Source: Setaria digitata (taxonomy: Eukaryota > Nematoda > Chromadorea > Rhabditida > Setariidae). From it: 64,000 nt of DNA. The stretch covers positions 62,001-126,000 of the forward strand of contig RCAB01000106.1 of the NCBI GenBank assembly GCA_003640385.1. The letters run 5' to 3'. Position numbers and translations under genes: made by a program. The notes under the pieces are model-generated. The model did no database searches. It saw only the letters and a list, made by a program, of their open reading frames with translations, and was not told the origin of the DNA. Every line of letters begins with the position of its first letter. The first letter of the stretch is position 1. Below are positions 34,062-63,983 of the stretch, in pieces.

Positions 34062-34546
<485 letters not shown>

Positions 34547-36583: not shown

Positions 36584-39500
36584 TCAGTACCGATGGCGAT
36601 TTGAATGTCTGCAATGGAATTCAAAGTTGGATTTAATTAGTTTTCCATGCACTGAAGGGACGCAAAGAGTAATTAAATATAACAACTGACAGTTATCCTA
36701 TATTGTTTCTCACAAAAATTAACTATGCGTCGTTTATTGAGCTGCTGTGTCTCAATAATCTTACAGCAATAAAATTAAAAGACCTCAACAAAGACAGCGG
36801 GATTTATTTTTATATGGATGATTAAACCCAACAAGAACAAGAAGCAAAAAGAAATATGCACATCTGATGCTACATACTGTTTAGCTTGTGTCTAATATTC
36901 CTGTATGCTGAAATTCACCAGCAGTACAATCAATATGTCAACGTTTCGTAGCTAACATGATAAAAAGAAACTTTCTGAACATGAAACCATGCGGTGAAAT
37001 GAATATAAAAGAAAAAAATTTCATTAAAAATTCATTAAAAAAATTTCTTTTCATCGTTTTACATCTCTAAATTCATTTTCTAAAAAATTCTCAAGTTCTC
37101 AAAAAGTTTAAAAACTAGAAATGAGAAAACTGCATATTACCTTCGAAGCCGATCATGTTCTTCATGAGAATTTTCACGCCAACCACTTTTAGACGAACCG
37201 TGATTTGAATAAGAATCATATTTGTGCGCAGACGGTCGCTCTAAGTTATGTCTCTTCTCATGACTGAAATAAAAAAAGTATATGTTAGAAAAGCAGAAAA
37301 GAAAAATTACAGAAAGAAAACTGAAAAAGCTACTTTAGCGACTTAGAACGGTGACGGCGACTGCGTATCAAAGGACGACGCCTTGGTGATAATTTCTTTG
37401 GCGAAGCACGGCGCTTTCTTAAAGATGACGACAAACGAGTACTGCTATATGATGGATATGAAACCGCAACATCCATCAGTGGAAGCGGTCGGGACGGACT
37501 CTGTAAGCGGAGAAAATAATTTCAGATATCGAATTTATTCATAAACTAACAGAGTAGAAGAAGCATTCAGCAAATGTTAGAATGGTGGGATTTATAAAAA
37601 TCAGGATAATTTGTGGGAAGCGTATTTTGGCCAAGGCACAGATAAGATCAAAACAGTTAAAACCACCGTTAAAAAAAAAAATCTTTTTTTTTAAGCCTTT
37701 CAAACCTAACTTATTTAATTTGAATACGCACATAATTTTCTGTCCCGCAAGTCTTCCTGCTTCGGCCATTATATCTAGTGGAAGATAACATCACAGCAGG
37801 AGGTCGCTCTTCACTCAGCAAATCTTTCAAAGTTTTCTTTACCGGCAGATTTCTGAAATTTTCCAACGATAAATAAAATAATTTAACCACCCTGGTATAT
37901 TAACATAAGTAAAACATTGTCTGCTCTTTTAGACAAATAGGAAACATCGATTTCCACGAAATCCAGTTGATATGGCAGTACAAACATGTCTGGAGAGAAA
38001 GCAAAAAACTTAAAATATGAAAAAGGTGGATGGAAGTTCCAATTTTTTTAAACGGTTGTTATTAAGCTCAATTTTTGGAGGCACATGACGTTACAAACAG
38101 CTATGTTATTCTATAACTGGTCAACAGTGTTTCAGAACCATCAAAACCGTTAACAGTTAAATTTTTTTTTCTTACTGACAGGAATAAGAAGTAGCATAAA
38201 ACATACTGCACAAAAAATCATTACAGAAAAAAAAATACCTCTTCGCATTCCTGAATTCAAAATACGATATTTCAGTTTCCAATAAAGATGGCAGTTTTTG
38301 CGAATTATTCCGAATTTTCATTTTCAATGCTTTCACATCTACGCTATCATCAAAAGGAAATAAGCTGCAAAGCCTCTGACCAGCTGCACGTTGTATCTCA
38401 CAACCATCTGCAGCAGCGTATATCACCTTTTCTAAAAAAATTATATGTATATAATCTAAATAAATTGCATTAAGCGCGTTTTACTAAGGTAAAGTTCAGA
38501 AAAATTACACCAACAAAGATAAAAAAGTTCAACTGTTTTGATTTCAATTTCGCATTGTGCAAGCTAGTAAGCACTGTATTGCTTTTTCATAAATTTGATA
38601 AAATGGTATGCACCGTGCATAAATAAGATATTTCCTGGTCGATTCTGCGATTGTAAACAATCAGATTTATTAACTGTCAAGTGATTCACATGAACGAGCA
38701 CAAAAGACCTGTTTTAGTAAATGCCGTGGGAAGCTAGGCTTTTGAACAAATATACCTAGTCTACGAGAGCAGGTTTGTTAAAAGAGAAAGCTTAAATTTT
38801 TAAAAATGGGATTAACTGAATTTGAAGTTCAAAGAAGCAGAGAATACTTTAAATTGAATGATACCTTTATTGAAAGGATTTCTGATGTGATCACTTGCAC
38901 TTAGTGCAAGCGGACATTTTGTAATCCACTGTAATTTGATGTTACCACCACCTTTGAAGTCAACCCATCTCATTGCTGGTTGACCTTTGTAGAGTGCTTC
39001 TGAACACATCTGTGCAAAACCTGCAAAGGATGAATGAGGAAATTTCGACGCCTACTATTTTAGTGAAGTGATTCCTTATTTCAGAAAAACACTGATACTC
39101 CCTGTATGCAGCAGATCAACAATTTATGTTAACATATTTGAGAAAATACCGGCAAAATGATCTGCATTTCGTGCAAGGAAAACCAAAATCACAACAGGAG
39201 CTCGTCGATACGCCTCAGCTAAGAGCTTCTCGACAAATGGATGAGTTGTCCACAATGATGTTTCCATCGCCAATTTGATATTTTCTTCACATGCTCGTGC
39301 TAAGAAGAATTGTGCACGATGCATCAAACATTCGATTTCAACTGACTCTAAAATGTTTCTTACTTATTGCTTAAACACAAAAATATATTAAAACTGGACG
39401 ACAGCATATTTAAAGTTATAAAAAAGAATAACTGCTTAGTTTCTTTTTCGTGAAATCTTTATTGTCTTTGATGGGATATTTTTCCTGAAAATTACCAACG

Positions 39501-42500
39501 AGAACAATGACTTACCTGCGCAAATGACAGCATCTGGTCGTTTATATTTATACGATTCCGTTGAATGTGCTCTTTTACATGATGACACAAGCTCCTTTTT
39601 CACCAAAGGCACAGAATGGCAACGAGATGGTTCTGCTACCTCTTCTGCAAACTTCAAACAATCGACTGAAATCTATGAAAACACCGAGTTAAAGCAGCCC
39701 AGTACAATAAATGAATTGAATAGAATGTTTTCCGAGATTGAAAATAACTCTAAAATAATTCGAATAGGAACCTTGAAAAAATAGAATATTGCAGTTTTTG
39801 CACTCTGGACAGATTACCCAGAAACTATTAAAAACTAAAGCTCAACTGTTGAGGATACATTCACTTTTCAAATTACTTAAAGACAAATTAAATACCCAAT
39901 AAGCTATTTGAAACTCATTGACTTTTTTATCCCTCTTATGTCGGAAGCATTTTTTTTTGCCACTAATTTTACATAATGCACCTCCGTAGAATCATAAAAT
40001 ATCACATTTGGCTGACTTCACCACAGGTCATCCCAGAAAAAGATGAGAAAGATGATCTCTTCCAAAAAATTTCAATAATCTTTTAATTGATTTTGTTTCC
40101 ATTACCAACTTCAAGGAGAATTTCTTTATTAAACGACGATATTCTTTTTACTGAAGTAAACTATTCTACAAGCAGTGAGGAAGTAGATGATTAATTACCC
40201 CCTTCATCTAACAAAGCTATACAAAATGAAAGTTCTTTGGGCCTTTTGTTTGCACCACTAGGTGTTATTGGTTACTTCCAGCTTTATCTAATTCAAATCA
40301 GTTAAAACTTTAAATTCGGAGCTGGAAGAATTCTCTGTATGGTTTTCACAAAATTAAGATAAATTCTCACTAATCGTTTCTAACCTTCTTCGCTCGGTAA
40401 AAAAGAGAGATCAAAGAAGTGAAAAGCTCTGGGATGACAACTGTTTGGTGTGACGCTGCAACTTAACAACGTTCTGGAGGATTCTACTAGCAATCTGAAC
40501 GTTCTCAGCCAATAATATTCTCCTTTAGTTTATATTCACAATACAAAATGTAACTAAAGCTAGAAGAACAGGATAGATAAGAAGTAAAAATAACCATGCG
40601 TTTCGTTGCACTCATCTCGGACGACCAGATCCAAGTCCACATCGCCCTCATCCAGCTGATCAGAATGATTTGGCACAACGACGATGACACCATCATTGGT
40701 AACAACTTGTGCTGAACAGTATTCGAGATTGCTGTTAGCACAGATTTTTTCAGCTGATTCAGAACTAGAGCGTTTGCCTGTTTCGCAGTTGTTGTTATCG
40801 CCGCTATCATGTTCACCTGCATTTTCTGATGGTGATGATTAGGTGCCTGGTCCTGCTTGGTCAATGCTGAACAGATTTGAAGAATCTTCATTTTCTTCAT
40901 TTGCAGGTGAGGAAGACTGCATTTTTTATTTTCTTTGGGTATGCAATGACGATTCAGAGTTTAAGGTCAAAGGAAGACTTTGTTAGGGTGGAAATGATTG
41001 AGTCAACAGTCAGATGAAGAGAAATCATAATCACAAGGATTCAAATAGTCAGCCCAGAATACCAACTTGAACTGGTAGCACGTGGTGTATGGTTGCTTCC
41101 CAACATCAGACTCAAAGGTAACTGGAAAAATATTGGCCTCAGTGGGAATGAGGCTTTTGAAGAAGTGGGAAGCAGCGTTTTTAACAAGACAAGTAGAGCT
41201 GATGACACTGCTATCAGTCTGGAGAAGGAGTAGCCGGAGTTGTTGAAGGCCTTACCATCTGTCAAATTAAGCGTAACTTCGCTGGTAAAGGAATGGAAAG
41301 CCAAAGCAGTACAAGCGCTTTCTCCCACACATGAAATTCTGACAGGGACAGAGAAAACAAAGGATGGGATGGTCAAAGGTAAGTTTCATAGATGTAGGAA
41401 TGGTAGTGGTTATCGAAGTGTAGTCAACACAATAGGGGCAACAATCCCACCGAATAGCAAAGCTGAAAGAAAAAAGCGGAAATTTTTTTTTTTGGGGAAG
41501 ATTTTAAAAGCTTAAACAAGTGTTTAAAATTTAATAAATTAAGAATTCATAGACACTACTAAAATTTAAAGATATCCTGAAGAGAGAGAAGCAAGAGAGT
41601 AAGAAGAACGTTAACGATACACATACAGTCAATTATCCCAACCACTTTTGTTACATTCCAGGACGTAGAGACTTTAGGATTCACTGAAATTTTTATTTTT
41701 CGCTTATAAAAGTCATTTTTTGTTTACCTATCCGTTCAAAAAATAGAGCATGAAAAAGTAAGAAAAACAATCTCCAATAAGCGCAAACAGCGTACTGGTG
41801 TGTATCACAAAATGTATATTATCCATTTCTAAAACCTAGCAGTATTTCTTGGAAAACAAGTTATTGCCAAAATTACAAAGCTTTCCTTTACTTTTTCAGT
41901 TCTATGCCNTATCATTTCTAAAACCTAGCAGTATTTCTTGGAGAACAAGTTATTGCCAAAATTACAAAGCTTTCCTTTACTTTTTCAGTTCTATGCCTCT
42001 CCTAAGGACCAAACCTCATTCGTTAGTCTACTCAACCCAATCATAATGATGTCAAACTATTCAAGTCTATTTTTTGAACAAGCCTCCTAAATAGTAGCCA
42101 TAGATGTTTCCATTATTTGGATAACTATCTAAATAACATATTATCACAAAGAAGTCCTCAACAGTTTCACCATTTAACTATTTATGGCTTCCATCATAAA
42201 ACTAAAGTTAACCCTTCTCTAGTGTGTAACTCTTATCAAAAGTAACCAGTAAATTATGGAAATAATATAAACTAGGCGTACCAAATCTTAGCTATTCAAG
42301 CTGAAAGTGTTACCCAATATAATTCAAATTATGTCCTACCTTTCACCGATTAGCCAGCATCGGAACAATATAGCTAAACAAAGACTGACTAAACATTAAA
42401 TTAAATATGTAGAAGTTGTCAAATAATGTAAAAGTATGAAAAAATCATGTAAATCATAAAAAACAATGCTCACCATCATTGGAAGAAATTGGTGAATCAG

Positions 42501-42528
42501 AGCGCGTCCCATCCCTTGTCTCTGCCAT
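36584..42528 (-). CDS. YTHDC1: YTH-domain protein, YTHDC1 type (nuclear m6A reader)
   Basis: Ten exons join in phase to 472 residues: 42528-42474, 40825-40595, 39665-39516, 39347-39150, 39020-38865, 38431-38239, 37852-37732, 37500-37334, 37263-37141 and 36608-36584. The N-terminal 145 residues are acidic and disordered. The YTH domain spans about 159-292: FFLARACEENIKLA, SLWTTHP with cage Trp178, ILVFLARNADHFAGFAQM, KLQWITKCPLAL with cage Trp243, DHIRNPFNKG, and CSLFPFDD. Order and spacing match YTHDC1 rather than YTHDF proteins: Trp178 and Trp243 match human W377 and W428, and Asn168 matches N367. The usual SNN before it is replaced by RAC, and the third cage position is Ile or Leu. The C-terminal 100 residues are Arg/Ser-rich (SRRHRSKSLK), as in nuclear splicing-linked readers. 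Expected role: binding N6-methyladenosine in nuclear RNA. The exon 7 donor (GTGCGT), exon 2 acceptor (CATCAG) and the 25-nt last exon are the weakest borders. Confidence 0.88.
41018..41515 (+). pseudogene. Open frame with one internal stop, antisense in YTH intron 1
   Basis: One plus frame runs from after a TGA at 41015 to a TAA at 41513, interrupted only by TAG at 41231-41233. It reads YQLELVARGVWLLPNIRLKG before the stop and LPSVKLSVTSLVKEWKAKAV after it. Length and composition suggest a decayed or intron-containing gene rather than chance, but no family is recognised and no ATG of note starts it. Confidence 0.25.
41824..41997. repeat. Near-identical 85-bp duplicate around a single N
   Basis: Copy 1 is 41824-41908 and copy 2 is 41913-41997, with N at 41909. 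They differ by one base (GGAAAAC versus GGAGAAC). It lies in intron 1 of the YTH gene, so the model is not affected. Confidence 0.88.
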
Positions 42529-61400: not shown

Positions 61401-63983
61401 TAGCTTTCTCATTTTAATCATTTCTTTTCTATTTCAAAGCACTAAGGAACGTTCTTATCATTCCATTGACACTTGCAGTGTGATAATCACTACTGCGTCA
61501 ATTTCTGCAGCAAATAAGCTTACTTACCAAGCAAATCAGCACAGAAATATTATAAGCTAATAATGGCTTTTGCAAACGAACATTGTTTGTGGCATTTGTA
61601 AGGCCCAGTAATTTCATATATGTAATTAATGGCTGAATCATTGATTCAACCAAATTTTTCATCTCTTTCTTCACCTTTTTTTCATCGTTTTTCGTCATTT
61701 TCCTATTTGCTGTTATTTCTTCAAATTCTGATGCATCTGTAATTTACATGGCATCTGAGATGATAACCTAACATATTCACTTGCTACTGTCAGTGATAAA
61801 CTTACCAAACGTAATTGACAAAGAATCTTCTGGTACTGCCAATGGCACCGATGCAATTGCTTCTGTATTGCTTGTTTGCTAAAAAATTGGAAAGAAAAAA
61901 TAGAGCAAAAAAAGGAAAAACTCCCAATCTTTTAAAAAACTTACAAAAATATTAGACCAAGTTGAAAAGTTCACTCATATTTCGAATATTTTCAATTACA
62001 CTTACGATTTGTTCATTTTTAAAATATTTTGCAACCATCGTTTCATTGCTTTTTTCAATTCGACTTATAACATTCATTATTGTACACTTTTTTCTAAGTT
62101 ATACCGAACAATTCATCGTTTCTAAAGTTTCACCATTTCTTTTAACAAAATTTAGTAGTAAATGGGCAGTGAGGGAACTAAAAGAATTAAAAGTAACTGA
62201 ATAAAAATGATTAACTGACTATTCATAGCATCTTTAACCAAAAAATATAAGGAATACATTCACGATAACAATAATATTATGAAAGAAACATATGATATCT
62301 AAAAAATTGATATACATGACCGTTTGTTGGTTTTTGTCAAAAATTTAACTGATTATCAAGAACTTACAACACAACCAAACTTAAGAAATCACGTAAAAAG
62401 TTATTAAAATAAAGATTAGCATAAAAAAGAATTAACTTTCTTTTTGTTCACAGCACTTTTCATTAAAAAAGAAATGATTTCAAACAATTATGAAATATTT
62501 TTGGATTTCATAATTGCTTGAAATTATTTCTTTTAAAATAAAAAAAAACCAAAAAAATAAAATCTCGTTTAAATAAAAAATCACTTTTAAAAACCTATTG
62601 GAAAAATCTAAATACATTTTAAGCGTCTCCATTACTTTATTGAAATATGTAGAAAAAAAAAAAGAAAAAACAAAGAAAAAAGTTGATGCTGAAGAATTTT
62701 TTTTTGTTTCCGTTAGTCCATTTAAAGGCCTTCTAATCAGAAAACATGAAGCACTCTTGACTCCCATCTATCAACAACCACTTTCTATAATTCTTTCTTT
62801 TTTCCTGAAGCTTCTGGTGCTAGTAAAAGAGATAATAAATAAATATTCATGAAATGAAAATTGCTAAAATAAATGCGTGGAAAACTATCATAATCAGCTG
62901 GATGCATAAGTTTAACAGATGTAATTTCACACTGGCAAGGGAAAATTGTATTTAATTTCATTTCTCTTTTTCAGTGAATTCTTCTTAAAAGGATAACAAC
63001 GAAAAAAAAGAGAAAAAAGAAAATATTCTAGAAAAAAAAAACAAGAATCCATTTATCATTTTCAAAATACAAGGAAAAAATATATTTTAAACTTACAATA
63101 TTGTTTAATGAAAAGAATAAAAGGGACGGAAAAACAAGAATTTGTACAAAAAATAAGTAATATCTATCCTATCCTTTTAATTAATTAAATACTTTTTCAT
63201 TTAACAGTGTGTTCACTGATTTGATTTCCACTTTTAATTAAACTTCTACTCAAAAATTACAAATTCTTAATTGCTTCGATCGAGACAACTATTTCGCTTT
63301 AATCATTATAAATAGTGATTTATCAATTAAAGCAATCTTTGCAATTATTAATATTTCATTTCTCTTCTAACAGTCTGTATTAAAAAGGCATTTGTTACCT
63401 GGTTCCGCCTTATCAAAAAAAAAAAAAAAATCCTCAGATTGTTATCATTCATCTTCGAATCCTCCATTGATTCTTGCACTGCTAATTGTTTATATGCTAA
63501 CAAATAAATTAGAATAATTAACAGTAAAGTAACAAAATGTCATTAAAATATAGTGAAAATATGATTTATGTGATAAATTTATAACACCGGTTTCGCAAAG
63601 TAATTTTTTACGTCGTGGTCGATTTATTGAGGTTCCAGATTCTGACGAGATTTCATCCGTGATACGACATCTACAAGAATATTTTAGCACTCGCACTAAT
63701 TAAAAATAGCGTTAATTAATCATTTGGTAGCTAGATATAATATGCAAGAATTATTTAGCGTAGAGATAACATCTGGGCATGCAATTATTTTAATCATCAA
63801 TAAGATTGATAACGATTTTTAAATTTAAACCTTGAAAAATGCTTTATCAATAACGCTGATGAGAATGAAGTTTCAAAAAGAAAATTTCAAATGCTTGAAC
63901 TTTATTCTGTACTTGAGATAAAGCGAAAAATAAAGGAAAATAAAAAGCTGATACCTGGTACGAACTTTGGTATTAACATCCAT
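58460..63983 (-). CDS. Multi-pass membrane protein, possibly a chemoreceptor
   Basis: Eight exons join in phase to 346 residues: 63983-63955, 63670-63588, 61862-61806, 61736-61528, 61080-60986, 60179-59952, 59906-59834 and 58726-58460 (TAA). The N-terminus is hydrophilic with a basic patch (RPRRKK) and a Lys/Glu-rich stretch (KNDEKKVKKEMKNLV). Hydrophobic spans occur at about 112-126, 133-155, 190-214, 243-258, 272-293 and 304-330, so five or more transmembrane helices are likely. A charged loop (VTEIIRERYVADAFHDAH) precedes the third. The layout resembles nematode gustatory-type (GUR) or serpentine receptors, but the insect-receptor C-terminal TYhhhhhQF motif is not visible and I cannot assign a family. 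Introns 5, 7 and several others are long and AT-rich. The exon 7 donor (GTTTAG) is weak. The other joins use good TTTCAG or TAG acceptors. Confidence 0.68.
62467..62534. repeat. 30-bp inverted repeat in intron 2 of the membrane-protein gene
   Basis: Left arm 62467-62496 and right arm 62505-62534 pair over 30 bp with two mismatches around an 8-base loop. It could be a foldback element or form a stem in the pre-mRNA. Confidence 0.8.

Follow-up and report, generated by a model that had tools for sequence, protein, structure and literature searches.

The closest described relative of the gene reported here is the nuclear reader of N6-methyladenosine (m6A) YTHDC1, known in Drosophila as YT521-B. 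In human YTHDC1 the residues L380, V382, N383 and M438 form the pocket for the G at position −1, and R475 stacks on the C at position +1, as described in PMC6112328. Schizosaccharomyces pombe, which lacks METTL3/METTL14, has the YTH protein Mmi1; this protein keeps the two tryptophans of the m6A cage and has a His at the third wall (PMC6356822). Its base-reading Asn is lost, and it recognises UNAAAC through its opposite face. For nematodes, a 2021 Cell paper states that the m6A writer-reader system is lacking (PMC8208822). According to the same text, METT-10 of Caenorhabditis elegans methylates UACAGAAAC at a 3′ splice site in the S-adenosylmethionine (SAM) synthetase genes (sams), and a stem-loop is required. 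The DNA analysed in this study (the window) comprises 64,000 nt of contig RCAB01000106.1 from Setaria digitata (positions 62,001 to 126,000, assembly GCA_003640385.1). On its minus strand, from 42528 to 36584, it contains a gene that, judged from its sequence, is almost certainly a YTH gene of the YTHDC1 type. We propose, with a probability of roughly 45%, that the product is a functional nuclear YTHDC1 orthologue, that it has persisted after the loss of METTL3/METTL14, and that METTL16-type marks may now be its main ligand.

The gene consists of ten exons and nine introns, all of the latter GT..AG, and the exons keep a consistent phase over 1419 nt (472 amino acids plus stop), which confirms the span and the exon number of the initial annotation. 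The predicted protein has a single Pfam domain, YTH (PF04146), with an E value of 1e-24 and 87.3 bits versus a cut-off of 22.1; the match covers profile positions 3–134 of 135, and the domain recognised in the initial annotation is thus borne out by the profile search. No further YTH gene was found in the Setaria genome by PF04146, its two matches falling on exons 4 and 5 of the present gene. A query with human YTHDC1 recovered the locus in three pieces with 38–40% identity (E values 6.8e-5, 0.026 and 0.49). Among solved YTH proteins the best match was YTHDC1 (structure 2yud_A, which we take to be the human protein) with 92.8 bits, followed by YTHDC2 (64.1), CPSF30 (50.6), Mmi1 (46.0) and YTHDF proteins (at most 29.9); the placement in the YTHDC1 subfamily reflects closeness in bit score among these solved proteins and not a tree. 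The domain shows 39% identity to that of human YTHDC1. As in YTHDC1 and YT521-B, one central YTH domain is flanked by an acidic N-terminal part (20% D+E before the domain) and an Arg-rich tail (23% K+R after the domain).

Protein database searches, performed with nematode queries only, revealed 14 YTH homologues in a single-protein search and 19 in a second search that used an alignment of 13 of them and scored the 7997 candidates with most shared words. An organism name is given for 17 of the 19, and all named organisms belong to Spirurina: taxonomy look-ups placed four species in this suborder, in four infraorders, while the remaining genera are presumably members of it. The named genera are Setaria, Wuchereria, Cercopithifilaria, Dirofilaria (two models), Elaeophora, Onchocerca, Loa, Litomosoides, Acanthocheilonema, Brugia, Thelazia, Gongylonema, Syphacia, Gnathostoma, Parascaris and Toxocara. 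The gene is spread over at least four infraorders of Spirurina, and is therefore old in the suborder and was retained, not regained. Of the two possibilities given in the initial annotation, a reader kept or regained, the second is not supported by this distribution. YTH homologues can be found in nematode proteomes, both in filariae and in other Spirurina. The label “YTH domain-containing protein” had already been attached to 14 of the 19 entries by a source.

In comparison to nine models of other filariae, the Setaria domain is 91–96% identical and the remainder of the protein 62–78%; therefore the constraint on the domain is stronger. It is extremely improbable that the locus is a pseudogene, contaminating host DNA or open frames joined by chance. 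Nothing but a one-base N gap in intron 1 speaks for it. Over residues 23–465, all 443 positions agree with A0A915PIC3, a UniRef entry of S. digitata, and the window is therefore filarial and not host DNA. Moreover, homologues of other filariae show about 67–84% identity to the Setaria protein, the ten exons are intact, the domain is conserved above its flanks, and the identity to the human domain is only 39%. We rejected this explanation, and with it the contamination that the initial annotation had named as a possible refutation.

For comparison of the binding pocket, 16 of the 19 proteins were aligned, all except P0005, P0009 and P0018. The Asn that reads the base and the two cage tryptophans are kept. 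Exon 4 (39150..39347) encodes N168 and the cage residue W178, which correspond to human N367 and W377. The N367 position, the contact to N1 of m6A in human YTHDC1, is Asn in 15 of 16 proteins (Asp in the Gongylonema model), and the W377 position is Trp in all 16. Exon 5 (38865..39020) encodes W230 at the position of human W428, which is Trp in 15 of 15 proteins (one model is without that stretch), as well as F233, G235 and the structural W243. The end of the domain lies in exon 6 (38239..38431), with A271 at the position of human R475 and D272 at that of D476, the latter being Asp in 15 of 15. Residues 178 and 243 had been taken for the two cage tryptophans in the initial annotation; W178 is one of them, but the second is W230, since the counterpart of W243 is the Trp in human FKIDW, outside the three cage residues.

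Other parts of the pocket differ from human YTHDC1. The loop between W428 and W447 is six residues shorter in the worms, and M438 falls within the deleted loop. At the L439 position, eight residues before the structural Trp, where YTHDF2 has its third Trp, Gly is present in 15 of 15 proteins. MAFFT places a six-residue gap in such a way that L439 is deleted, which has the same consequence as Gly, namely loss of the third wall of the cage. YTHDF proteins and the worm proteins have in common that the structural Trp is spaced 13 residues from the second cage Trp, but the third Trp of YTHDF2 is Gly in the worms. L380 and N383 are kept in none of the 16 proteins, so that the G−1 pocket is lost, and R475 is likewise absent from all 16 (the P0017 model continues into an intron at this position). 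The P431 position is Phe in 15 of 15 proteins (F233 in Setaria), and the alignment suggests that this residue would be placed in the pocket. A further change concerns the residues before the conserved Asn, K-S-N-N in human and R-A/S-C in the worms. The replacement of SNN by RAC, which the initial annotation considered as a possible change in specificity, does exist in Setaria, but is a lesser change than the loss of the third cage wall, the G−1 pocket and Arg475. As aligned, the worm pocket would still contact base and methyl group, but has lost one wall and the residues that contact the GG-m6A-C context. On this basis the loss of the G−1 pocket and of R475 lowers the case for an RNA preference like that of human YTHDC1, not the case for a YTHDC1 orthologue.

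A domain with these changes might no longer read m6A and, like Mmi1, bind unmethylated RNA with another surface. This is the main rival to our proposal, and we consider it possible though somewhat unlikely. In favour of it, S. pombe is also without METTL3/METTL14 and Mmi1 is also altered at the third wall, where all 15 worm proteins have Gly or a deletion, and R475 is absent throughout. The N-terminal extension of Mmi1 serves RNA binding (PMC6005420). The worm proteins have a segment outside the YTH domain, at residues ~125–150 in exon 3 (39516..39665), that contains YKYKRP and CAES and is similar in worms ranging from filariae to ascarids; in a protein of the Mmi1 kind it could contribute to binding in the manner of the extension that precedes the Mmi1 domain. 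However, the base-reading Asn is replaced by Ala in Mmi1, and this replacement is not found in the worms, where Asn is present in 15 of 16 proteins. Furthermore, W178, W230 and D272 are fixed across the suborder, which is unexpected for a pocket that is not used, and Mmi1 is the more distant match (46.0 versus 92.8 bits for YTHDC1).

m6A writers were searched for in this Setaria genome only, a 75.6-Mb assembly of 976 contigs with unmeasured completeness. The PF05063 profile, applied up to E 10, matched a single gene with three exons on contig 701. The exon peptides matched chain 7cv6 (Methyltransferase-like protein 2), presumably the plant METTL4 orthologue, with an E value of 2.8e-18 versus 0.015 for METTL3. 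A human METTL4 query recovered four pieces of the same gene with 33–55% identity (E values 1.5e-5, 2.0e-4, 0.376 and 0.433), and gave a fifth weak match (E 3.08) on a different contig. METTL3 was also considered among the MT-A70 matches and rejected, because all three exons belong to one gene that is closest to METTL4. Human METTL3 and METTL14 queries matched nothing in the Setaria genome up to E 10, with no genome of known METTL3/METTL14 content as positive control; human YTHDC1 (best E 6.8e-5) and human METTL4 (best E 1.5e-5), used as control queries, recovered their genes. METTL3 and METTL14 are very probably absent from the Setaria genome. The VIRMA profile had no match in the genome either, and as no control genome had VIRMA, its absence is not established.

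WTAP, in contrast to METTL3, METTL14 and VIRMA, was found among the writer components that the initial annotation had proposed to look for: two exons on contig 46 (~225400–227700) were over the cut-off, with E values of 3.3e-10 and 1.7e-8. Weaker matches of the WTAP profile, under the cut-off, also occurred in 3 of 14 prokaryote controls. In the protein database WTAP had 17 matches (P0020–P0036), 14 of them with an organism name, from filariae and Thelazia, and three without; 6 of the 17 are called RAB6-interacting golgin. Filariae retain WTAP, although METTL3/METTL14 was not found in the Setaria genome. The METTL16 profile (PF05971) matched four pieces of one region, three of them over the cut-off, with a CNPPF stretch lying between them.

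According to the initial annotation, either a writer persists or the domain reads something else. This alternative was well posed: as no METTL3/METTL14 was found, the domain may read the marks of another writer or something else. If these enzymes do persist in filariae, missing from the assembly or too diverged, the protein would be an ordinary YTHDC1 reading RRACH marks. The presence of WTAP, a subunit of the METTL3/METTL14 complex, would fit this view, as would the division of the assembly into 976 contigs and the lack of a positive control for the METTL3/METTL14 queries. We nevertheless regard it as improbable: the PF05063 search returned three exons of one METTL4 gene only, the METTL3/METTL14 queries gave zero candidates while both human control queries found genes (33–55% identity), VIRMA, searched for without a positive control, was not found either, and the parts of the pocket that suit GG-m6A-CU are lost. 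It is more improbable still that the domain reads m6A set by another enzyme, i.e., METTL4 (on U2), METTL5 (on 18S) or ZCCHC4 (on 28S). METTL4 is present, but to our knowledge YTHDC1 has no link to METTL4, METTL5 or ZCCHC4 marks.

METTL16 targets have a C before and a G after the methylated A. Two candidate targets were found in Setaria. The U6 RNA contains TACAGAGAA. A SAM-synthetase gene on contig 239 was identified by the match of its joined exons to the PDB (E 8.4e-38). Its intron before ETVTKTDM ends with TTACAG and the following exon starts with AAACAG (~17291), so that the 3′ splice site UACAG|AAAC forms the nonamer UACAGAAAC. A single copy of TACAGAAAC is present in 94,004 bp, considering both strands of the window and of four fetched regions including that of the SAM synthetase. 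A possible 6-bp stem surrounds the splice-site motif, in which GUUACU pairs with AGUAAC. In comparison to 200 shuffled sequences, the hairpin reached a z value of −2.20 at 30 nt (five shuffles as stable) and −2.03 at 65 nt (seven as stable). METTL16, the U6 motif UACAGAGAA, and UACAG|AAAC with a possible stem in a SAM-synthetase gene are shared with the METT-10/sams system described in PMC8208822; the difference is that Setaria has a reader gene.

These observations led us to favour the reading introduced above. A YTHDC1 gene would have been inherited vertically within Spirurina and would have survived the loss of METTL3/METTL14 in this lineage, a loss that would have left METTL16 as the remaining writer of m6A in mRNA. 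The pocket contacts that were lost are those that would suit a G before and a C after m6A, and METTL16 targets would present the reverse. For mammals, PMC8208822 cites a proposed recruitment of YTHDC1 by METTL16 marks on MAT2A. That the worm protein works as a reader of METTL16 marks is our inference. A stricter version holds that YTHDC1 of Spirurina was retuned, having shed the parts for GG-m6A-CU (G−1 pocket, R475 and the Leu wall) and acquired a new cage Phe, and became a dedicated reader of METTL16 marks. This version appears unlikely.

Several points weigh against a METTL16-mark reader. The third wall of the cage (L439) is Gly, or deleted, in all 15 proteins, and alanine mutation of any one of the three cage residues was reported to disrupt binding (PMC6356822). 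L380, N383 and R475 are lost throughout. AlphaFold models made from 13 and 16 sequences had confidence (pLDDT) values of 34.4 and 41.0 and were too poor. The METTL3/METTL14 queries had no positive-control genome. At 41 nt the hairpin had a z value of only −0.46, with 60 of 200 shuffles as stable, and in the predicted folds four more pairs inside the stem occupy part of the motif, including the target A. In these models the splice-site motif does not lie wholly in the loop, the target A being paired in a short inner helix. Finally, C. elegans is said to be without a YTH reader, and its splice-site mark reportedly exerts its effect through a block of U2AF35 (PMC8208822).

The other exons, all on the minus strand, encode the parts flanking the domain. 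Exon 1 (42474..42528) provides the start codon (MAETRDG...); the start MAE- is also present in models of Dirofilaria immitis, Onchocerca volvulus and Wuchereria bancrofti, while the S. digitata UniRef model begins elsewhere. Exon 2 (40595..40825) encodes the acidic N-terminal part and has two in-frame acceptors 9 nt apart (40825 and 40816), both forms being found among relatives. The tail is encoded by exon 7 (37732..37852, identical in the homologue P0001), exon 8 (37334..37500, Arg/Ser-rich), exon 9 (37141..37263) and exon 10 (36584..36608), which provides the final residues and the stop. Exon 10 is not part of the S. digitata UniRef model, but its end has counterparts (HSSRHRY, HSNRHRY and similar) in four relatives. 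The Arg/Ser-rich tail claimed in the initial annotation is indeed rich in these residues (32.7% R+S in residues 305–472), but RS/SR pairs are not in excess (6 versus 9.05 in shuffled sequences); the tail is Arg/Ser-rich and has no RS-repeat domain. In intron 1 (41826–41998) a stretch of ~85 bases is near-exactly duplicated on either side of a single N (~41910), most likely an artefact of joining in the assembly. A tRNA-Pro gene (anticodon TGG) is located at 34119–34191 on the minus strand.

Our search of the literature for YTH or METTL3 in filariae, ascarids and other parasitic nematodes found no discussion of a Spirurina YTH gene in the papers searched, and for Trichinella no title that concerned METTL3 of the worm. 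For Bursaphelenchus xylophilus, which belongs to the suborder Tylenchina, a 2026 paper reported no YTH reader and named no METTL3 in the sections covered (PMC13203692). There METTL14a/b are assigned a general AdoMet-methyltransferase domain and METTL4 is assigned MT-A70. METTL14a/b of the pine wood nematode may possibly not be METTL14. Brugia malayi orthologues are mentioned there beside the FMR1/YTHDC1 branch of the reader tree. The kind of YTH protein found here is known, but the variant without third wall and G−1 pocket, in a genome where METTL3/METTL14 was not found, is undescribed as far as our searches show.

The presence of a reader gene across a whole suborder of parasitic nematodes means that the m6A system was lost within the phylum. 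If the absence of METTL3/METTL14 holds, the loss was stepwise, with the writer lost before the reader in this lineage. Two questions become testable: what role YTHDC1 has after the main writer is gone, and whether the geometry of the m6A cage follows the sequence context of the writer. If the retuned reader were true, filarial worms would have an m6A circuit of one writer and one reader that governs SAM supply through m6A at the 3′ splice site of the SAM-synthetase gene. The YTH reader is a conserved protein of filarial parasites that reportedly has no counterpart in C. elegans, the usual model.
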